Of a stretch of 32,145 bases of DNA, positions 3,399 to 19,400 are shown piece after piece. The notes beneath the pieces were generated by a model. The model ran no database searches, was not told the DNA's origin, and saw only the letters and a list, made by a program, of their open reading frames with translations. The DNA is from a virus, in IMG/VR virus record IMGVR_UViG_3300032050_000514, positions 1 through 32,145 of that record; one strand, 5' to 3'. Both the position numbers and the translations under genes were made by a program. How positions within the stretch are numbered: the stretch's first letter is position 1; every line of letters starts with the position of its first letter.

Positions 3399-5260
3399 AA
3401 ACACTACCCCTCTTCCCAATGAAGTCCGATTGGGTTGCTCCAGAGACGTTCCCAAACCTCTCTACCGCCAAAGAAATCGCCATCGACCTAGAGACCTGTG
3501 ATCCGCATCTGGAGTCTATGGGCCCCGGCTGGCCAAGGAACGACGGCTTCATCGTCGGCTACGCGGTGGCCGTGGATGGCTGGTCAGGGTATTACCCTGT
3601 TGCCCATGCCGGAGGCGGAAATCTCGATAAAAAGCGTGTGGAAAAATGGATGGCTGATGTACTAGCCACACCTGCCGACAAGATCATGCACAACGCTGCC
3701 TATGATATGGGTTGGCTACTATCGTCAGGCTATAAGATAAATGGCCGTATTCTAGATACGATGATCGCGGCCCCGCTGCTGGACGAAAACCGCTTCTCTT
3801 TCTCTCTTAACGCGCTAGGCTTCGACTACCTCAAAGAGGTAAAGAGCGAGGCAGGGCTGAAAGAAGCGGCCGGGGACTTCGGTGTGCACCCCAAGAAGGA
3901 ACTGTGGAAGCTACCCGCCATGTATGTTGGGGAGTACGCTGAGCAGGATGCTGCGCTGACGTTAAAGCTCTGGCAAGCCTTCAAAATCAAGCTCAAACAG
4001 GAGGATGTCGAGTCCATCTTTGATCTGGAGACGCGCCTGTTCCCTGTGCTTCTATCGATAACGGCCAAGGGTGTTCGCTTTGACCGTAATCGATGTGAGC
4101 AGACTATCGCGGAACTGGTCCTCCGGGAGCGTGGCTTGGTGGCTCAAATAAAGAGCCTGTCCGGGGTTGGCGTGGACATCTGGGCCGCCGCCTCGATTGC
4201 TAAAGCCTTCGACAAGCTAAGCGTCCCCTACCCAAAGACCGATACCGGCTTGCCAAGCTTCACCAAATCTTTCTTGGATGAATGCCCGCACGAGATCGGC
4301 AAACTAATTATCGAGGCCCGCGAGACCAATAAGACGCACAGCACATTCCTGCGGCCTTACCTTGAGTTCTCTGCCAAGAGTGGGCGTATCCACCCCCACA
4401 TCAACCAACTGCGCTCAGACGATGGCGGAACGGTCTCAGGGCGGCTATCAATGGCCAACCCAAACCTCCAGCAGGTACCTGCCCGGCACGAGGTCATCGG
4501 CCCGCTGGTGCGCTCTCTGTTCCTGCCCGAGGAAGGCGAACTGTGGGCCTCTAATGACTTCTCTTCCCAAGAGCCGCGCCTGCTAGTGCATTACGCCTCG
4601 CTGCTGGACCTACCCGGCTCGGAGACCATGGTAGACGCGTACCGGAACAACCCCGACACCGACTTCCACCAGATGGTGGCAGACATGGCAGGAATTAAAC
4701 GCAAGGCCGCCAAGACCATCGGCTTAGGACTAATGTACGGCATGGGCGTGGCCAAACTCGCCACACAACTCGACCTGTCCCACGAAGAAGCCAAGGAACT
4801 AATCGACACCTTTCACAAGAAGGTGCCATTCCTAAAAGGCACGGTGAACTCGGTCATGCGCCGTATCGACCATCCGGCTGCCGGTGGCGCTATCCGTACC
4901 CTCTTGGGCCGCAAGTGCCGCTTCCCTCTGTGGGAACCCATGCAGTGGGGCGTGAACAAGGCGCTGCCTTACGAACAGGCCGTCGTGGAATACGGACCAC
5001 GGATCAAGCGGGCAGGCACCTACAAAGGATTGAACCGCCTGATTCAAGGATCAGCGGCGGATCAGACCAAGATGGCCATGGTGGCTTTGCATGAGGCCGG
5101 AGAAAACCTCCTGCTCCAAGTGCACGATGAACTGGTGTTGTCAGTAAAAGACCGCGCTCAGGCTGAACGGGCTGCGGAGATTATGGCGAACTGCGTCAAA
5201 ATGGAAATCCCCAGCCGGGTAGACGTAGAAGTCGGCCCGAACTGGGGAGAGGCGAAATAA
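3395..5260 (+). CDS. Family A DNA polymerase with 3'-5' exonuclease
   Basis: A 621-residue phage replicative polymerase. It starts at TTG 3395, overlapping the helicase TGA, with AGAGGA eight bases upstream; the first ATG is at 3419. The N-terminal DEDDy proofreading exonuclease is visible: IDLET (Asp31, Glu33), NAAYD (Asn100, Asp104) and YAEQD (Tyr181, Asp185). The polymerase domain has motif A with Asp388 (NDFSSQEPRLLVHY), the O-helix motif B with Arg436, Lys440 and Tyr448, and motif C VHDE (His577-Asp578-Glu579). There is no 5'-3' exonuclease domain, as in T7-type enzymes. The O-helix position equivalent to E. coli Phe762 is Leu444. It is the last gene of the rightward replication block and ends ten bases from the end of the convergent operon. 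Confidence 0.97.
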   Translation: MKTLPLFPMKSDWVAPETFPNLSTAKEIAIDLETCDPHLESMGPGWPRNDGFIVGYAVAVDGWSGYYPVAHAGGGNLDKKRVEKWMADVLATPADKIMHNAAYDMGWLLSSGYKINGRILDTMIAAPLLDENRFSFSLNALGFDYLKEVKSEAGLKEAAGDFGVHPKKELWKLPAMYVGEYAEQDAALTLKLWQAFKIKLKQEDVESIFDLETRLFPVLLSITAKGVRFDRNRCEQTIAELVLRERGLVAQIKSLSGVGVDIWAAASIAKAFDKLSVPYPKTDTGLPSFTKSFLDECPHEIGKLIIEARETNKTHSTFLRPYLEFSAKSGRIHPHINQLRSDDGGTVSGRLSMANPNLQQVPARHEVIGPLVRSLFLPEEGELWASNDFSSQEPRLLVHYASLLDLPGSETMVDAYRNNPDTDFHQMVADMAGIKRKAAKTIGLGLMYGMGVAKLATQLDLSHEEAKELIDTFHKKVPFLKGTVNSVMRRIDHPAAGGAIRTLLGRKCRFPLWEPMQWGVNKALPYEQAVVEYGPRIKRAGTYKGLNRLIQGSAADQTKMAMVALHEAGENLLLQVHDELVLSVKDRAQAERAAEIMANCVKMEIPSRVDVEVGPNWGEAK

Positions 5261-5688: not shown

Positions 5689-5925
5689 TCACAGGAACCC
5701 CTCAATCCGCTCCACCGGCCATCCCGTTGTCTTGTGAACACGCAAGATGAAATCCGAACTTACAGCATTCGTCCCGTGCCGAATCTTAGACATCGTGCTG
5801 CGCGACACCTTCAAAAAGTCACACAACTGACCGTCCGAGGACAACGCAAACTCCCACTTCAATTGGTCTATCAGGGGGTGTGCAGGCAGTGGTGTACAGT
5901 TACTCGAACCCTTTGGCCTTCCCAT
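5689..5925 (-). CDS. Cro/CI-like helix-turn-helix DNA-binding protein
   Basis: 78 residues starting at ATG 5925, with GAGAGGAAA upstream. A longer frame to 6045 overlaps the neighbouring gene and is not needed. Residues about 25-65 form an XRE-type helix-turn-helix: SSDGQLCDFLKVSRSTMSKI, then RHGTNAVSSDFILRVHKTTG, with the conserved turn around KVSRSTMSKIRHG. Proteins of this family bind palindromic operators as dimers. It is the only obvious small transcription factor in the window, so it is a candidate ligand for the palindromic operators at 11980-14226 (inference). It sits late in the leftward operon. Confidence 0.85.
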   Translation of the reverse strand: MGRPKGSSNCTPLPAHPLIDQLKWEFALSSDGQLCDFLKVSRSTMSKIRHGTNAVSSDFILRVHKTTGWPVERIEGFL

Positions 5926-5926
5926 C

Positions 5927-6133
5927 TTATGTTTCCTCTCGGTTATGCTTGAAAAGATAATCTTCGCGATACTCTGTTGGTGGCACCCACCCATACTTGC
6001 GCCAAATCGCCTGTACATTTGCCCCCGGCCGCCATTTGAAGTCATCCAGCAACCGAGCGTGTTTAGCCGAGGTACCGTACAGATTGACTTCCGGCACCAC
6101 CATGTAATCTTCCGTAACGACTTTGAATTTCAT
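5927..6133 (-). CDS. Small hypothetical protein
   Basis: 68 residues starting MKFKVVTEDYMVVPEV, with a strong AAGGAGG eight bases before ATG 6133. The central part (AKHARLLDDFKWRPGANVQAI) and Trp-rich WRKYGWVPPTEYRE are typical of a short globular protein. The family was not recognised. The stop lies one base before the start of the helix-turn-helix gene, so the two are co-translated. Confidence 0.75.
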   Translation of the reverse strand: MKFKVVTEDYMVVPEVNLYGTSAKHARLLDDFKWRPGANVQAIWRKYGWVPPTEYREDYLFKHNREET

Positions 6134-12034: not shown

Positions 12035-12055
12035 CGGCCGGTGGCGGCCGTTTTT
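12035..12055 (+). terminator. Hairpin plus T-run before the DUF932 start (possible attenuator)
   Basis: CGGCCG (12035-12040), GTGG, CGGCCG (12045-12050), then TTTTT and immediately the AGAGAGGATAG start box. It has the form of an intrinsic terminator but lies between the promoter and the coding sequence, so it may attenuate the gene or end upstream transcripts. Confidence 0.45.
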
Positions 12056-12070
12056 AGAGAGGATAGAGAA

Positions 12071-13063
12071 ATGGCTCACATGATTGATCAAACAACCGGC
12101 CGCGCTGCAATTGCTTACGCTGGACAAACCCCATGGCACGGCCTCGGCCGCCAATTGTCGGAAGGCGCGACAATTGAACAATGGACTCAGGAGGCCGGGC
12201 TAGGCTATACCGTCGAGACCTCCGATGTTCAATACGTCACTCCGGCCGTCACTGGCTTGCAGGTTTGGCCTGATCGCAAAGTATTGACACGCTCAGACAC
12301 AGGTGCCCCGCTGGCAGTGGTGAGTAAGGATTACAACGTGGTCCAGCCCGGGCAAGTGATGGACTTTTTCCGCAAGCTTTCCGACATCGGCGGGTTTCAA
12401 ATGGAAACGGCCGGGGCGTTATCTGACGGCCGCCGGGTTTGGGCGCTGGCCCGTGTTGGTGATGCTGCCCCGGTGGTAGATGGTGACTTAGTGAAGCCGT
12501 ACCTATTACTCGGTACCAGCTACGACGGCACAATGGCCACGATTGCAAAATTCACCGCTATCCGGGTGGTTTGTAATAACACCATCACCCCGGCCGTTAA
12601 CGGCCGCGCTGATGAGACGGACAAGGGTTATCTAAAATCAAGTGTCCGGGTTTTGCACTCCGAGCGGTTCGACGCTGATGCGGTTCGCCTGCAGCTTGGC
12701 ATCGTCGCGAATCAATTCGAGCGGTTTATTGTTCAGTCGCGCCAGCTATCGCACATCCCTATGTCGGCTACTGATTCCGATTTATTCATTTGCGAATTAT
12801 TGAAGCCTTATCACCAGAGTAAGCTTGATATCAGAGAGACCAAAGCATATAAGCGGGTTTTGGACTTGTTCGAAAACCGCAAGGCTATCGGTTCCGACAT
12901 CCCGGGTGTTGCTGGTACCCGTTGGGCGATGCTCAATGCTGTGACGCAATTGGTAGACCACGAGCGCGGCCGCTCGGACAATACGCGCCTCGAATCAGCG
13001 TGGTTTGGCACTGGTGCGGCGCTTAAAAACCGGGCGCTGGAATTGTTAAATTCTGCAGCGTGA
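12071..13063 (+). CDS. DUF932 phage/plasmid-like protein
   Basis: 330 residues from ATG 12071, with the AGAGAGGATAGAGAA start box. The beginning (AYAGQTPWHGLGRQLSEGAT) and IEQWTQEAGLGYTVE match the DUF932 (TIGR03299-like) family found on phages and plasmids. Other family-typical blocks are DTGAPLAVVSKDYNVVQP, YLLLGTSYDGTMAT, AIRVVCNNT and NRKAIGSD..GTRWAMLNAV near the C-terminus. The molecular function is not established; the family often sits in accessory regions near recombination or anti-defence genes. It has its own promoter and is followed by an intrinsic terminator, so it is a stand-alone transcription unit. It contains intragenic palindromes at 12152-12176 and 12591-12606. Confidence 0.88.
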   Translation: MAHMIDQTTGRAAIAYAGQTPWHGLGRQLSEGATIEQWTQEAGLGYTVETSDVQYVTPAVTGLQVWPDRKVLTRSDTGAPLAVVSKDYNVVQPGQVMDFFRKLSDIGGFQMETAGALSDGRRVWALARVGDAAPVVDGDLVKPYLLLGTSYDGTMATIAKFTAIRVVCNNTITPAVNGRADETDKGYLKSSVRVLHSERFDADAVRLQLGIVANQFERFIVQSRQLSHIPMSATDSDLFICELLKPYHQSKLDIRETKAYKRVLDLFENRKAIGSDIPGVAGTRWAMLNAVTQLVDHERGRSDNTRLESAWFGTGAALKNRALELLNSAA

Positions 13064-13244: not shown

Positions 13245-13304
13245 ACTATTGACTCGCGGCAATAGTTCCGTTACATTATCGGAACCGGCCCGCCGGTTCC
13301 GATA
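13245..13304 (+). promoter_or_regulatory. Palindrome-bracketed promoter, module 1
   Basis: TTGACT (13249-13254), a 17-base spacer and TACATT (13272-13277). The -35 lies in an inverted repeat ACTATTG (13245-13251) / CAATAGT (13260-13266). Directly after the -10 is a perfect palindrome with 13-nt arms (TATCGGAACCGGC and its complement, two-base centre, 13277-13304). Then follows GAGAAAGGATAGCGAA before ATG 13328. Confidence 0.75.
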
Positions 13305-13327
13305 AGCTTTTGAGAAAGGATAGCGAA

Positions 13328-13564
13328 ATGAAAAACCTATATTTTTTGCGCATTGATAATGACTCGCTTGATGATGCCCGCGCTTACCAGACACTGGCCG
13401 GTGCCAAACGTGCTTTCCGCATTGTCGCGGCCGAACTCTGGCGCTATGGCCAAGCCTGCAGTGCGACAGTGCATATTGCGCCACGGCCCGCCGAGCTTGC
13501 TGAATATCCGGATTATGTTTTGATGCTCGGCCCGCGCGGCGGGCTGCAGGTGGACCGGGCCTGA
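13328..13564 (+). CDS. Small hypothetical protein, island module 1
   Basis: 78 residues from ATG 13328 (MKNLYFLRIDNDSLDD), with the start box AAAGGATAG; an upstream in-frame ATG at 13310 lies inside the leader. The likely fold is small alpha/beta (AYQTLAGAKRAFRIVAAELW). It ends with YPDYVLMLGPRGGLQVDRA. The family was not recognised with confidence, although similar short proteins are common in phages. It has its own palindrome-bracketed promoter. Confidence 0.76.
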   Translation: MKNLYFLRIDNDSLDDARAYQTLAGAKRAFRIVAAELWRYGQACSATVHIAPRPAELAEYPDYVLMLGPRGGLQVDRA

Positions 13565-13566
13565 TA

Positions 13567-13626
13567 AACTATTGACGCGCGTCAATAGTTCAGATACATT
13601 ATCGGTACTGGCTAGCCAGTACCGAT
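13567..13626 (+). promoter_or_regulatory. Palindrome-bracketed promoter, module 2
   Basis: TTGACG (13572-13577), a 17-base spacer and TACATT (13595-13600). The -35 is inside a perfect 24-bp palindrome (arm AACTATTGACGC, 13567-13590). A perfect 26-bp palindrome (arm ATCGGTACTGGCT, 13601-13626) abuts the -10 and covers the expected start point. The start box CTAGAGAGGATAGAGAG precedes ATG 13651. Confidence 0.8.
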
Positions 13627-13650
13627 TGACAACCTAGAGAGGATAGAGAG

Positions 13651-14163
13651 ATGAGCAAATACGAATTAGCCGCCAGCATCAAAGTAGGAATTTTCGCTTC
13701 CCGCGATACACTCGAAGAGGCTTTCGAGTACACCGAGACGATGTTCAATTCAATGCCCGATCCGGCCCACCGGGCTGCAGCGCGGACCGCGCTGCACGTG
13801 ATGTTGAACTCGGTGGCCAAGCAAATTATCGCGTTGCCCGATCCGCTGCCGCTGCCCCCGGCCGAGGTTCGCATCTCGGTGGAGGATAATCCTGCGACTG
13901 GCACCGAGGCGCGGCAAGACCTGCAAAGTGTGCTCGAGCCAGTGATGGTATCGGTGCCGCGCGACGAGTTGAACCGCATCATCGACGCGCGTGTCAGCGA
14001 ATGGCTAGATGACCGCTTCGATAGCATGGCCAGCGAATGGTTCAACGACAATGTCGATATCGATGAAAAGGTGCAGGAGTATCTCGACAGTGAGGTGGAC
14101 TGGACTGACATTGTGCGTGACCAGCTCTGCCACAATCTAACGCTCAGTGTATCGGTTGAGTAA
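13651..14163 (+). CDS. Acidic hypothetical protein, island module 2
   Basis: 170 residues from ATG 13651 (MSKYELAASIKVGIF). The N-terminal half is helical (TLEEAFEYTETMFNSM, then AHRAAARTALHVML). A Pro-rich linker (LPDPLPLPPAEV) follows. The C-terminal half is very acidic, with repeated short helices (WLDDRFDSMASEWFNDNVDI, DEKVQEYLDSEVDWTDIV). No known family was recognised; the acidic tail might mimic DNA or bind a basic partner, which is speculation. It contains a perfect 21-nt palindrome at 13776-13796. Confidence 0.78.
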   Translation: MSKYELAASIKVGIFASRDTLEEAFEYTETMFNSMPDPAHRAAARTALHVMLNSVAKQIIALPDPLPLPPAEVRISVEDNPATGTEARQDLQSVLEPVMVSVPRDELNRIIDARVSEWLDDRFDSMASEWFNDNVDIDEKVQEYLDSEVDWTDIVRDQLCHNLTLSVSVE

Positions 14164-14168
14164 TAGAG

Positions 14169-14226
14169 TATTGACGGCCGTCAATAGTTCGGGTACATTA
14201 TCGGTACTGGCTAGCCAGTACCGATA
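14169..14226 (+). promoter_or_regulatory. Palindrome-bracketed promoter, module 3
   Basis: TTGACG (14171-14176), a 17-base spacer and TACATT (14194-14199). The -35 is inside an 18-bp perfect palindrome (arm TATTGACGG, 14169-14186). A 28-bp perfect palindrome (arm TATCGGTACTGGCT, 14199-14226) follows the -10. The start box CTAGAAAGGATAGTGAG precedes ATG 14248. Confidence 0.8.
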
Positions 14227-14247
14227 AACCCTAGAAAGGATAGTGAG

Positions 14248-14538
14248 ATGAAGACCACCAAAGTAAGCACCATCAAGATCGGCGGAATTGAATTTGCAAT
14301 TCCGCCCGGTATGACTGACAAGGAAGTTGCAGCATTCTGCGGAATTGCGCTGCAATTCCGCAAGCTAGATTATTTCCACGCCAACGATTACCGCAAGCCC
14401 TTCACCTATTTCGACGGGTACGTCGAAGTGTCACGCGGTACGCGTGACACTTTCGAGACCGAAGAGGAAGCCCGCGCGGCCCGCGATGCGCGCAACGCGG
14501 AACTCGAGGCGGCCGAGAAGGCGAAGGCCGAAGCCTGA
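14248..14538 (+). CDS. Small hypothetical protein, island module 3
   Basis: 96 residues from ATG 14248. The opening MKTTKVSTIKIGGIEFAIPP and the middle (DYFHANDYRKPFTYFDGYVE) suggest a small beta domain. The C-terminus is a long charged Ala/Glu helix (EEARAARDARNAELEAAEKA). The function is unknown. Its coding sequence contains four perfect inverted repeats (14281-14306, 14338-14362, 14410-14427, 14426-14452), two of which share the same GCGGAATTG arm. It is followed by two strong hairpins, so the unit is closed. Confidence 0.78.
   Translation: MKTTKVSTIKIGGIEFAIPPGMTDKEVAAFCGIALQFRKLDYFHANDYRKPFTYFDGYVEVSRGTRDTFETEEEARAARDARNAELEAAEKAKAEA
14281..14362. repeat. Two copies of a GCGGAATTG / CAATTCCGC inverted repeat inside a gene
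   Basis: Copy 1: GGCGGAATTG (14281-14290) with CAATTCCGCC (14297-14306). Copy 2: TGCGGAATTGC (14338-14348) with GCAATTCCGCA (14352-14362). The arms are identical for nine bases in four places, 57 bases apart, and both lie in the coding sequence of the 14248 gene. Confidence 0.7.
14410..14452. repeat. Two adjacent perfect inverted repeats inside a gene
   Basis: TTCGACG (14410-14416) / CGTCGAA (14421-14427) with loop GGTA, then AAGTGTCACGCG (14426-14437) / CGCGTGACACTT (14441-14452) with loop GTA. The two share bases 14426-14427, so they would be alternative or stacked structures. Confidence 0.65.
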
Positions 14539-14542
14539 TACA

Positions 14543-14565
14543 CCAGACCGGCAGCGCCGGTCTGG
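14543..14565 (+). terminator. Perfect hairpin directly after the module 3 gene
   Basis: CCAGACCGGC (14543-14552), AGC, GCCGGTCTGG (14556-14565), four bases after the stop codon. It has no T-run and probably works with the terminator that follows, or protects the mRNA 3' end. Confidence 0.5.
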
Positions 14566-14572
14566 ATCACCG

Positions 14573-14598
14573 AACCCGGGCCGTGGCCCGGGTTTTTT
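14573..14598 (+). terminator. Strong intrinsic terminator
   Basis: AACCCGGGCC (14573-14582), GT, GGCCCGGGTT (14585-14594), followed by TTTT. Ten perfect GC-rich pairs and a T-run make this a canonical Rho-independent terminator closing the island transcripts. Confidence 0.85.
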
Positions 14599-14962
14599 AT
14601 TGCCTGCTACTCTGCACACTATCAGCGCGGCCGCGCTGATAGATACAATTGTCTTGACTTATAGGCCGGGCGCTGCCCGGCCTATAACAGCGCAGCACCC
14701 AGCACACGCACCCGCCCCCTGTCCAATTGCATATGACTATCGGCTATAGCTGAGCGATAGCTTGACATTCCCCGTGTCGCGACACGGGGAATGAGATAGA
14801 AGGAAGGGGGGAGGGCCATTTTCAGACCCGTCAGCTCAGGCTCAGCCTTCGCCCAGTTTTTGGCCCAAGACAGGCACAGGAAAACCTTTTTATTTACCCC
14901 CACCCCCATAAAACCACCCCTTTGTTTGTACAATGCGAACATGGGGTATATATTAGGAAACT
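14599..14962. other. Gene-free stretch with three large perfect palindromes upstream of terL
   Basis: No gene was found. Palindromes: 14619-14642 (24 bp, arm CTATCAGCGCGG), 14659-14687 (13-nt arms TTATAGGCCGGGC, loop GCT) and 14766-14793 (28 bp, arm CATTCCCCGTGTCG). The weaker CTATCG / CGATAG pair at 14737-14760 lies between them. TTGACT and TTGACA sit at the left edge of the second and third, but no matching -10 follows at 16-18 bases. 14820-14960 is plain G/C-tract DNA. Possible roles are a packaging site, operators or a replication element. Confidence 0.6.
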
Positions 14963-16423
14963 ATGAAACCTGATGAAATCGAAGCAGAACGCTTGCGCCT
15001 CGAGCTACGGCTCTCGCTCCTCGAAGCTCGAGAAAAAGCATCGTCTAACTTCTTAGACTTCTGCAAGTACGTCTGGCCAGAAATGCTGGTGGGTGAACAT
15101 CATCGCCGTATAGCGAAGGCCCTTGACCGCGTTGTGTCAGGCGAGTGCAAGCGTCTGATGATCGCGATGCCTCCCCGTCATGGCAAAAGCCAGATGGGCA
15201 GTTACCTGTTCCCCGCGTATCTAATGGGTAAAAAGCCGGATTCGAAATTGATTGTGGGTTCGCACACGGCGGAGTTAGCGCAGCGTTTTGGCCGGATGAT
15301 TCGAAATCTGGTGGAGGACGAGCGGTACTCGGAGATATTTCCTGAGATGAAACTGTCGGTGGACAGTAAGGCTGCCGGACGGTGGAACACGGCCCACGGT
15401 GGGGAAGCCTTTTTCATTGGTAAGGGCGGTGCGATGACCGGTCGCGGCGGTGATGTGGTTGTGTTGGACGACATCTTGGATGAACAGGATGCTGTGTCTG
15501 AGACGGCGATGGAGAACACGTGGGAGTGGTACACGAGCGGCCCTCGTCAGCGTTTGCAACCGAATGGCGCAATCATTGTCATTAACACAAGATGGAAGAC
15601 CGATGACTTGTCGGGAAGGTTGCTAAGGCAGCAGGGGCAGTTGAAAGCGGACCAGTGGGAGATATTGGAGTTCCCGGCGATATTGCCGAGTAACACGCCG
15701 CTGTGGCCGGAGTATTGGAGTCTTGACGAGTTGGAAAAGGTCAAGATGTCGATTGGTTTGAAGAAGTGGAATGCGCAGTGGCAGCAGCAGCCGACCAATG
15801 ATGATGGGGCGATTCTGAAGCGCGAGTGGTGGCGCAAGTGGAAGCATGATGAGCCGCCGCACTGTGAGTACATTTTGCAGACCATGGATACGGCGTACAG
15901 CAAGAAGGAGACGGCTGACTTTTCCGTGATCGCTACGTGGGGCGTGTTCCACGCTTCTGCTGACTCTGGCCCTAATTTAATTTTGTTGTCTGTGCAGAAG
16001 GGGCGCTGGGATTTCCCTGAACTGAAACGTATAGCGCGGTCCGAGTACCTGTATTGGAATCCCGATAATGTATTGATCGAGGCGAAAGCGACGGGGACCC
16101 CGTTGCAGCAGGAATTACGGAAGATGGGTATTCCTGTGACGATGTATAGCCCGGGGGGTAGGAGGAGTGGGCAGGATAAGGTAAGTCGGGCGAATGCTGT
16201 GGCTCCGTTGTTGGAGAGTGGGATGGTGTGGTATCCGGAGGGGGAGGAGTTTGCGCAGGATTTGGTGGAGGAGTGCGCGGCGTTTCCGAACGGGAGCAAT
16301 GATGATCAGGTGGATGTGACGGTCATGGCCTTGATGCGATTTAGGCAAGGCAACTTTGTGAAGTTAGATGAGGATGATGATTCTGAGCGGGATTTGGAGT
16401 CGCGGGTGATGGAGTATTACTAG
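14963..16423 (+). CDS. terL: Terminase large subunit
   Basis: 486 residues from ATG 14963, with TTAGGAAA upstream. The N-terminal ATPase has Walker A MPPRHGKS (residues 69-76) and Walker B VVVLDDILDE (Asp169-Asp170), with a coupling-type SGPRQRLQPNGAIIVINTRW segment. The C-terminal RNase H-like nuclease has Asp309 in MDTAYSKKETADFSV, LIEAKATGTPLQQE in the middle and NDDQVD (Asp447-Asp448) near the end. It cuts concatemers and pumps DNA into the prohead through the portal. It is the first gene of the packaging and head block. The small subunit lies 4 kb upstream, separated by the palindrome island. The stop is TAG. Confidence 0.97.
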   Translation: MKPDEIEAERLRLELRLSLLEAREKASSNFLDFCKYVWPEMLVGEHHRRIAKALDRVVSGECKRLMIAMPPRHGKSQMGSYLFPAYLMGKKPDSKLIVGSHTAELAQRFGRMIRNLVEDERYSEIFPEMKLSVDSKAAGRWNTAHGGEAFFIGKGGAMTGRGGDVVVLDDILDEQDAVSETAMENTWEWYTSGPRQRLQPNGAIIVINTRWKTDDLSGRLLRQQGQLKADQWEILEFPAILPSNTPLWPEYWSLDELEKVKMSIGLKKWNAQWQQQPTNDDGAILKREWWRKWKHDEPPHCEYILQTMDTAYSKKETADFSVIATWGVFHASADSGPNLILLSVQKGRWDFPELKRIARSEYLYWNPDNVLIEAKATGTPLQQELRKMGIPVTMYSPGGRRSGQDKVSRANAVAPLLESGMVWYPEGEEFAQDLVEECAAFPNGSNDDQVDVTVMALMRFRQGNFVKLDEDDDSERDLESRVMEYY

Positions 16424-16465: not shown

Positions 16466-19400
16466 ATGGCCGAAGAGAGCTTTGATAGGGACCGCATTAA
16501 ACAATTAATCATGGAGCAGGCGACTGCCCGTGGGGTGGACCCGGCGGTGGCGTTACGGATCGCGGAGAAGGAGAGTTCGTTAAATCCGACGGCGAAGAAT
16601 CCGAAGTCTTCGGCGTATGGGTTGTTTCAGATTATAGATCCGACGTGGGAGCGGTATGGGGGTACGAAGGAGAATCGCGGAAGTGTGTTGGACAATATCC
16701 GTATTGGGATGGACATTATTGCGGATAGCGAGCGGACGTATATAAAGAAGTTTGGCCGCGCCCCGAGTCCCGCTGAGCTTTATTCGATGCACTTTTTGGG
16801 TAGTACGGGGGGCCCTAGGGTTTTGGGTGCTGATCCGAATTCCCCATTGTCCTCGGTTGTTTCTCCGAAGGTGATAAAGCAGAACCCTGACTTGCGTGGC
16901 AAGACGGTGGGTGAGTTTATTGCGTCGATGCAGAAGAAGATGGGTGCGGTAGGGGATACGGCGTTAGCCCGCCGGTCTGTCAAGGAGCAAGGCTCGGGGA
17001 CCGTGCCTATGCCGCAGGCTCCGAAGGAGACGATGCGTGGGCGTGAGCGGTTGCAGCCGTTGGCGCAGGATATGGTGAATCAGTTAGGGCCGAATTATCA
17101 GGCGGCGTTAGCTGCGATGGCGTTGGCGGATACGCGGGAGGATGATGAGGATGATGAGAATTCCTTGTCGCGCCAGTACCGAGATCAGATAGCCGCGCAG
17201 GAGACAGAGGATATTTTCAGTACGCCCCAGCGTATTGCGGGGTTGGAGTTAGGTGTGCAGTCGCCGTTCCCTGAAGAGCAGCAGCCGTTGATGATGAAAG
17301 ATGGTGGCGAAGCACGTCTTTCCACTACTTTTGGTGAGAGCGCGGTGCCGGAGAATGCGGCGGCGGAGTATGCAAAGTTTTTGGAGGCTTCAAAAAAGTC
17401 TAAAGTGCCTGCGCCTTTGCCTGCCATGCTTAAAGAAAAAATCTTTGATCCGCTCACAAAAGGAGGGCTGCAAGAGGAGGGGGTGTACTACGACACCATG
17501 ACTCCGCAGCCTATCACCTCTAAATCACCAACCACGTTATTTGCTGGCGTTCCCGGTGCAAAGGTAGTTGAGCTAGGAGGATTGCAAGACACTACCCTCG
17601 GCGGGTTTGTGTTTGCGCGGCCATCTAGTAAGGGGAAGATGGTAGAGGATGTAGTCTTTGTTGCCCCACCATACTCGAAAAGAGCTTCGGATATTTTATT
17701 TCGTAGGGCACCGGAAAGATGGGTAGAAAACCCCAATCAAGAGCTTGAGCGTCAGGTGCTTCTTGGCCATGAGACAGAACACTTGTTGAAGCGCCGTGGC
17801 AATCGGGACATTAACGAAACCTTTGATCAACTAGCAAAGCAAGCAAGAGAAGAGGACTTTATCGGGTCCTTCTTTAAAAAGCCTGCGTCTGCGTTACGTT
17901 CAAAATTTGTCAAGGATGCGGCAGGTTCTGCATCGTACTTAAAAGATAGATTTGGAGTGACGCTGCCCTCTTACTTTGATCCTAAGAAGGTAGGAAACTA
18001 CACTTTCCATGAGCAGGTAGCGACACTTGCTGGCATTGAGCAGGCGTTTGGTGTGGATTTAACGCAGGACCCTGTGCTTCGTAAGACATTGTTTGAAGAC
18101 CCGGATGTCCGCCGTGCGTATTCCGCAGTCACGGGCTTGCGTCAAACGCGACTAGACCCGAGAGACTTGCCGCCTTATACGTTGCAGCCCGACATTCCGT
18201 ACAACCCAAAGGCAGCAGAGATTCGTACTAAGCCGGTAAAGAAGGCTAAGGGCGGTGAGATGTTTGCTGACCCGATGGGTGTGCCAGATAGTGGGCCAGT
18301 CACGGCAGATACTCGCAGAGCGCTGACCACGCGCCAAGGCTTGAATGCCGCTGAGATGATGCGTTTGTTCCAGAACGTAGGTCGGGAAGGAGTGAGCAAT
18401 CTTGAATCTTTGGCTCGTGGGTCCGTATCTGCTGTTCCCGGTGTGGTTGGAGATATTGAGTCCATTTTTCGGGACGATAAGAATCGTCGCTTCGCCACTA
18501 GCAAAGAAGTCGAGCGACAGTACCTCCCACAGCGCCTAACCAAACCGACCAAGGAGTCGGAAGGCTTTGTTGAGTTGGGCACCTACATTGATCCAACCAT
18601 TGCCAAGCCGGTGGCAAAAGCAGCGGCTAAGGCAGGTAAGGCGTTAGGCCCTACAGCAGCAGAGATGCTGGAGAGAGTCACACCGGAATTGGCAAAGCCG
18701 ATGTACATCGTAAAGCCTACGGGGGGTACTCCGTATCCGGCAGGAATGGGGTCGAAGCTAGATGATTATCTTCTTCGCCTTCATACTGGGGTGACACAAT
18801 ATGGTGGGGAAGGACTAAAAGGCAAAGATGCCAAGAAGCTTAGCGAGTTCATTGATACAAAAGGACGCGATTTCTTTACAAAGCGATTTGCTAGTCCTAC
18901 CGATCAAATAAGAGAAGCGTTGTTCGAGGGCCGCATTTCTTTAACTGGTAGTGATCTTGAGCTATTTCCAAAATCGTTGTTACATCACGCACGTGAGGGT
19001 TATCCACAGTGGATGGAGAAATTGGAAGAGACCTATGACAAAGCAACAGGAATGCGTGGGACACTTGTATTAAATCCCACGGGCACGGAAACCGAGGCGG
19101 ACATAACTAACCGGTTTATTAATGCAGTCAACGCGGAAAAAGCAAAGCTTGCAAAAGAAGGTGCTTCTCCAGAAGAGATCAATTTAAAAATAGATGATGT
19201 CATGCGTAATGAGTTAGGTAAGGAGTACGGCTCTTCTGATGCAGCAAGAGAATTGCGTAAATTTTTGAAGGAAGAAAAAACACCGCCTGAGAAGGCTTCT
19301 TCCGTGATGTATGCGGCGATGAAGGGCGAACCTATCTACGATTTGGAAACAGCATACCCTCAAATGGAGTTTATGCAGCCAAACACAGTAATTCCTGCAT

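Follow-up and report, generated by a model that had tools for sequence, protein, structure and literature searches.

In one genome region of an uncultured phage clade, almost all small genes are predicted to have their own promoter and 5' hairpin

Results

We found that, in one stretch of the genome of a clade of uncultured phages, nearly every small gene is preceded by its own predicted promoter and by a predicted hairpin at the 5' end of its transcript. The palindrome that forms this hairpin, referred to below as P2, carries no shared sequence code: pairing, not sequence, is conserved. We propose that P2 acts mainly as RNA, the small genes being transcribed separately and the 5'-terminal stem-loop capping each mRNA and slowing its decay, a reading to which we assign a probability of roughly 0.6. 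P2 is thus regarded here as probably a protective cap that slows mRNA breakdown and not as a binding site for a repressor.

Three promoter modules upstream of the terminase gene

The window, i.e. the whole stretch of DNA that was analysed, is a linear virus record of 32 kb (32,145 nt) with early genes on its left side and the terminase, transglycosylase-domain and portal genes on its right side. Three small genes, encoding proteins of 78, 170 and 96 aa, lie between a DUF932 gene (12041..13063, plus strand) and the gene of the terminase large subunit, TerL (14963..16423, plus strand); the genes for the transglycosylase-domain protein and the portal begin at 16466 and 20046, respectively. The small genes, hereafter cassette genes 1 (13328..13564), 2 (13651..14163) and 3 (14248..14538), are all on the plus strand, and their families are represented in alignments A6, A5 and A4, respectively. 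A near-identical ribosome-binding site (RBS) leader close to AGAAAGGATAG precedes all three ORFs. Comparison of the cassette proteins with Pfam and PHROG assigned them to no family and returned weak scattered matches only. Structure models were confident for the products of cassette gene 1 (pLDDT 92) and cassette gene 3, and these two models matched no solved structure in the PDB and gave one weak match to a viral model. A search of the window for known RNA families (Rfam) found none in the cassette region, its only match being int-alpA at 1401-1466 (53 bits, above the gathering score), at the start of a 166-aa ORF.

A preliminary description of this DNA reported three modules with the promoter TTGAC(T/G)-17-TACATT, each with a palindrome on the -35 element (P1) and a longer one, P2, at the -10 element and the start, and all of these elements are present. 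The promoters, all on the plus strand, are TTGACT-17-TACATT at 13249..13277 in module 1 (-35, 13249-13254; -10, 13272-13277; predicted +1, 13284) and TTGACG-17-TACATT at 13572..13600 in module 2 (-35, 13572-13577; -10, 13595-13600; predicted +1, 13607) and at 14171..14199 in module 3 (-35, 14171-14176; -10, 14194-14199; predicted +1, 14206). As described, P1 is perfect in two of the three modules: it is an imperfect palindrome around the -35 element in module 1 (13245..13266, plus strand, ACTATTGACTCGCGGCAATAGT) and has perfect arms of 12 bp in module 2 (13567..13590, plus strand) and 9 bp in module 3 (14169..14186, plus strand), with the -35 element inside. P2 is perfect in all three modules, with 14-bp arms around a 2-bp centre in module 1 (13276..13305), 13-bp arms in module 2 (13601..13626) and 15-bp arms in module 3 (14198..14227), all on the plus strand. 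Its perfection was therefore correctly reported, but its length is 26-30 bp rather than 26-28 bp, and instead of starting at the -10 edge it takes in the final two positions of the -10 element in modules 1 and 3. Read as RNA from the predicted +1, P2 is ACCGG-CCCG-CCGGU in module 1 and ACUGG-CUAG-CCAGU in modules 2 and 3; modules 2 and 3 are identical in P2, and module 1 differs in the inner bases yet stays symmetric, as had been noted. In predicted folds of modules 1 and 3, the RNA from +1 begins directly on the stem, which is only 5 bp long.

Counting inverted repeats with arms of at least 9 and a spacer of at most 8, we found 17 in the window, 14 of which fall within 13.2-14.8 kb, whereas about one would be expected in all 32 kb: ten randomised versions of the full window, generated with a first-order Markov model, had 0-2 each. 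Some lie within the small genes, at 13776-13796 in cassette gene 2 and at 14281-14306, 14338-14362 and 14426-14452 in cassette gene 3. The cassette array ends (14543..14601, plus strand) with inverted repeats at 14543-14565 and 14573-14594, the latter of which, with the T run behind it, is likely an intrinsic terminator. Three more palindromes are located between the cassettes and the terminase gene (14619-14642, 14659-14687 and 14766-14793); the preliminary description mentions neither these nor the palindromes inside two of the three small genes. Two of the three are found directly 3' of CTTGAC, with no -10 element at normal spacing. CTTGACA followed by a palindrome is kept in four related loci (L013, L014, L017 and L021), with a different palindrome sequence and, in several, a AGGGGGGAGGGCCAT-like stretch downstream. 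The palindrome at 14619-14642 belongs to another type, CTATC(G/A)..(C/T)GATAG, with conserved ends and a variable inside, which is found upstream of cassette promoters (L059, L074, L080, L082 and L088), often right after a stop codon and ahead of a AAACAATTCATT-like stretch.

Distribution of the leaders among related phages

Relatives were found by searches with the terminase as bait, which recovered the locus from over 100 phage contigs of environmental origin; their terminase identity to the query is mostly 74-100%. Repeats cluster in the 2.5 kb before the terminase gene in all 66 loci examined that had enough upstream sequence (3-15 vs 0-4 elsewhere in the locus), and in two records of ~61 kb most of the long repeats fall in this one region. 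The families of small genes recur in the clade, and so do the DUF932 gene and a DUF7227-type gene, which have leaders of the same type as the small genes, including 5'-end hairpins on the DUF932 orthologues. Single-gene promoter cassettes, as first proposed for the window, are supported. Isolates at 50-63% TerL identity (DSL-LC04, 023Pt_psg01, HTVC027P and HTVC023P) are devoid of the leader pattern, which therefore marks this clade. A DNA-level search of a phage collection returned no close relatives, the protein of cassette gene 3 used as a query matched only near-identical contigs, and a scan of bacterial genomes for the host revealed no relative. Phage leaders of this kind were not met with in the literature searched, although this does not prove that they are undescribed. 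Of 81 clade promoters, 44 have an extended -10 element (TGN in front of the hexamer). A -35 element matching 4 of 6 positions was observed in under half of the clade cassette promoters.

Position of the hairpin relative to the predicted start

To locate P2 independently of any start site, we used 126 distinct leaders containing exactly one exact TATAAT within 75 nt before the RBS, and counted stems from the hexamer on. A stem lies downstream of TATAAT in 104 of them, compared to 5.4 expected after shuffling. With +1 then predicted as the seventh base after the hexamer, 96 of these 104 stems start at -3 to +1. The same edge was observed in 86 stem-anchored leaders, for which the choice of the -10 element mildly favours starts near the stem, making the TATAAT set the cleaner test: the frequency of Watson-Crick pairing is 0.94-1.00 at +2..+11 and 0.74 at +1, and falls to 0.57 at -1, 0.37 at -2 and about 0.2 further out. 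In predicted folds of these leaders, the number of unpaired 5' bases is 0 in 65, 1 in 19 and 2 in 2, and only about 25 of 86 shuffled leaders have 0-1 unpaired bases. Hence, measured against the predicted +1, the stem sits at the 5' end of the transcript or within 1-2 nt of it.

In the relatives, the P2 stem is usually 8-11 bp long with a 4-nt loop, compared to 5 bp from +1 in the window. The non-pairing spacer is exactly 4 nt in 42 of 90 P2 stems, and 77 of the 90 are perfect. The end of the stem is mostly 6-10 nt upstream of the conserved AGAAAGGATAG-like RBS leader, and in predicted folds the 8-nt RBS core is unpaired 82% on average. In the module 2 leader of one relative (L012, at about 3400-3490), the P2 loop is expanded by a long insertion (GGGGCTTTTGGGGTTTCCC), the surrounding stem being kept.

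Conservation of pairing and divergence of sequence

For the gene closest to the terminase, we aligned 22 distinct leaders, redoing the alignment without two window-lineage leaders that were the source of gaps in its first version. In this alignment, 99.4% of the cells are paired, and double changes occur at all 8 pairs, with 66 double-change cells vs 17 after shuffling. The covariation score is 1.05, compared to 0.27 for shuffled alignments and at most 0.11 for slid controls. This strong covariation supports the earlier proposal that symmetry is selected.

The arms of P2 are free to diverge. Their identity is 33.6% between different genes of one phage, 30.6% between different genes of different phages and 35.2% between alleles of the same gene; the arms CGGGAGGCA, TTATTGACCGGG and GCACTGGATC, all from L017, illustrate this divergence inside one phage. 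Because arms within a phage are hardly more alike than arms from different phages, it is unlikely that a single sequence-specific protein reads P2, and the single dual-operator regulon initially suggested is not borne out for this palindrome.

Stem mismatches are biased on the sense strand toward G-T over A-C, at 10 vs 2 in the strictest set and 12 vs 3 and 20 vs 4 in two wider ones, the three counts overlapping (binomial P = 0.04, 0.04 and 0.0015, respectively, uncorrected for shared ancestry). The bias is modest in the strict sets, and as few as 10 of 789 pairs are G-U, both of which count against the RNA reading. Taken together, the G-U-biased mismatches, the mostly 4-nt loops and the freely covarying sequence point to an RNA hairpin, and we infer that RNA rather than DNA is the selected form.

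P1 and the pairing of P2 upstream of +1

In the window lineage, i.e. with TACATT promoters, perfect pairing of P2 continues to -5..-8 in 6 of 6 distinct alleles, and this extension shows compensatory differences (GGT/ACC, GAT/ATC, GGA/TCC and TTGAT/ATCAA). Transcription had been proposed to start inside P2, and in this lineage P2 does reach 6-8 bases beyond the predicted +1 on its upstream side; even so, the transcript would begin on a hairpin, of 5 bp. The upstream arm at -5..-8 lies outside the transcript of the window-lineage promoter. It could be half of an operator, part of a longer RNA produced by an earlier start or by read-through, or a by-product of palindrome repair; both hairpins are predicted to fold in a read-through RNA.

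Most promoters lack P1: a score of at least 7 is reached by 29 of 137, compared to 1.9 after shuffling. Its position varies. It is centred near -28, over the -35 element, in the window lineage, where its motif TATTGAC-N4-GTCAATA is conserved, and inside the spacer, at about -22 to -24, elsewhere. Mismatches in P1 are too few to distinguish RNA from DNA. Both P1 and the part of the window-lineage P2 that lies upstream of +1 may be DNA-level elements. A role of P1 as a hairpin at the 3' end of the gene before it was also considered and rejected: P1 shows no clear association with a stop codon close upstream (17 of 26 promoters with P1, 37 of 78 without), and P1 of module 1 is about 180 nt after the preceding gene.

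Inverted repeats inside the small genes

Perfect repeats (arm of at least 9) are also abundant within coding sequence. We counted 68 in 80.8 kb of distinct clade small genes, a 14-fold excess over the 5.0 obtained by synonymous shuffling, and 2 vs 1.0 in TerL, where enrichment is not clear. The spacers of the in-gene repeats are scattered, and no clear G-U bias was detected. Folding energy of the small genes did not differ between sense and antisense strands, giving no sign that the in-gene repeats act in RNA. Since perfect repeats are enriched here without a G-U bias, another process acts in this region. A good candidate is template switching, which would perfect palindromes that selection then fixes at 5' ends.

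Discussion

5'-terminal hairpins are textbook stabilisers of bacterial mRNA, and the evidence for this comes from a few single leaders. Those of E. coli ompA and papA are cited as such in PMC3997798 (Emory et al. 1992; Bouvet and Belasco 1992; Bricker and Belasco 1999). In E. coli, stabilisation by 5' structure is explained by the need of RppH and RNase E for single-stranded 5' ends, and RppH of Bacillus requires at least 2 unpaired 5' bases (PMC3997798). We suggest that the small genes of the clade are separate transcription units expressed from sigma70-type promoters, and that each transcript would open with a stem-loop that begins to pair at +1 or at most one or two bases away. Because it would have 0-1 unpaired 5' bases, such an mRNA should resist both RppH, which acts on the 5' triphosphate, and the cleavage by RNase E that depends on the 5' end. 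Each small gene may thereby give rise to its own long-lived and well-translated mRNA. These enzymes are known from E. coli and may not be those of the phages' host. Separate mRNAs with a protective 5' hairpin are favoured here because 0-1 unpaired bases is the form expected of a stabiliser, and stabilisation is the benefit that we infer.

Like the ompA and papA stabilisers, P2 combines a stem-loop at the extreme 5' end and few unpaired bases with an open RBS downstream. Unlike these single leaders, P2 is found at most genes of one phage region and in a whole clade, with an unconstrained sequence. Hairpins also lie close to phage promoters in N4-type hairpin promoters and put antitermination RNAs; in contrast, the clade has a sigma70 -10 element, often extended, upstream of a hairpin of unconserved sequence. 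Hairpins of phage mRNA leaders are likewise known from T4, where they either overlie the start region or are recognised by a protein through their sequence (PMC3014915), whereas those of the clade sit at the predicted +1 and leave the RBS mostly free. If our reading is correct, the clade would have a cheap, promoter-local means of setting mRNA lifetime, and its dozens of promoters that keep the stem edge at the first base of the transcript would form a large natural experiment in 5'-end-dependent decay. Furthermore, its more than 100 distinct alleles make the origin and persistence of perfect stems testable, by stepwise compensation vs template switching.

The hairpin might instead act in translation, by opening or insulating the RBS, or as an RNA site whose shape is read by a protein of phage or host or, as in put-like antitermination, by RNA polymerase. 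The largely unpaired RBS core of the predicted folds and the 6-10 nt between stem and RBS are in keeping with this unlikely role, but insulation has no need of a stem that starts at +1. Moreover, put-type RNAs and translational operators are conserved in sequence, and the clade hairpins are not; for translational operators, this conservation is documented (PMC3014915). Somewhat less likely still, P1 and P2 could be DNA operators for a dimeric repressor or activator, possibly phage-encoded, a reading that the preliminary description preferred to an RNA hairpin. It draws on the conserved P1 motif over the -35 element, on the extension of P2 upstream of +1 in the window lineage and on the identical P2 of modules 2 and 3. 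Across the clade, however, symmetry begins at the predicted start and not upstream, which, together with the G-U bias and the 4-nt loops, favours RNA over DNA. Furthermore, no P2 motif is shared within one genome, and P2 sequences of different genes of one phage, as in L017, are nearly as different as those of different phages. One regulator put forward, a CI-like HTH protein encoded at 5689-6045 (minus strand), is missing in three near-complete relatives of 60 kb in which the hairpins occur, which argues against a regulator travelling with the leaders as far as this protein is concerned. Among 8 relative records, it was found in one, the 60-kb record of L027; this match is interrupted by stop codons, and a second, weaker one is close by.

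An mRNA-protecting hairpin must also be weighed against an origin of the symmetry that is mainly mutational, in which template switching during replication perfects imperfect repeats that have little or no function. Template switching is documented as a source of hairpin stems and as a means of their repair (PMC8794818), and the excess of perfect in-gene repeats with scattered spacers and no G-U bias, as well as the perfection of most P2 stems, is consistent with such a process. As with template-switch hairpins, the stems are perfect, compensatory changes span several bases and G-U pairs are scarce; unlike the cases described in PMC8794818, which concern RNA genes such as rRNA, the repeats of the clade lie in phage mRNA leaders, promoter spacers and coding sequence. 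Mutation alone leaves unexplained why nearly all leader stems start at -3..+1 and why leader loops are mostly 4 nt when in-gene spacers are scattered, and as a full account it appears improbable, to about the same degree as the operators. Template switching may well supply variants that selection keeps. A broader scheme, which we regard as doubtful though less so than any of these alternatives, is that a 2-3 kb region of the clade undergoes continual, replication-linked writing and repair of perfect palindromes, which selection uses as sequence-free caps placed exactly at mRNA 5' ends and, secondly, inside promoter spacers.

Finally, P2 was considered as an intrinsic terminator or attenuator and rejected as such: no U tract follows it, and the sequence behind P2, in the relatives as in the window, is (AC)AACCTAGAAAGG-like.
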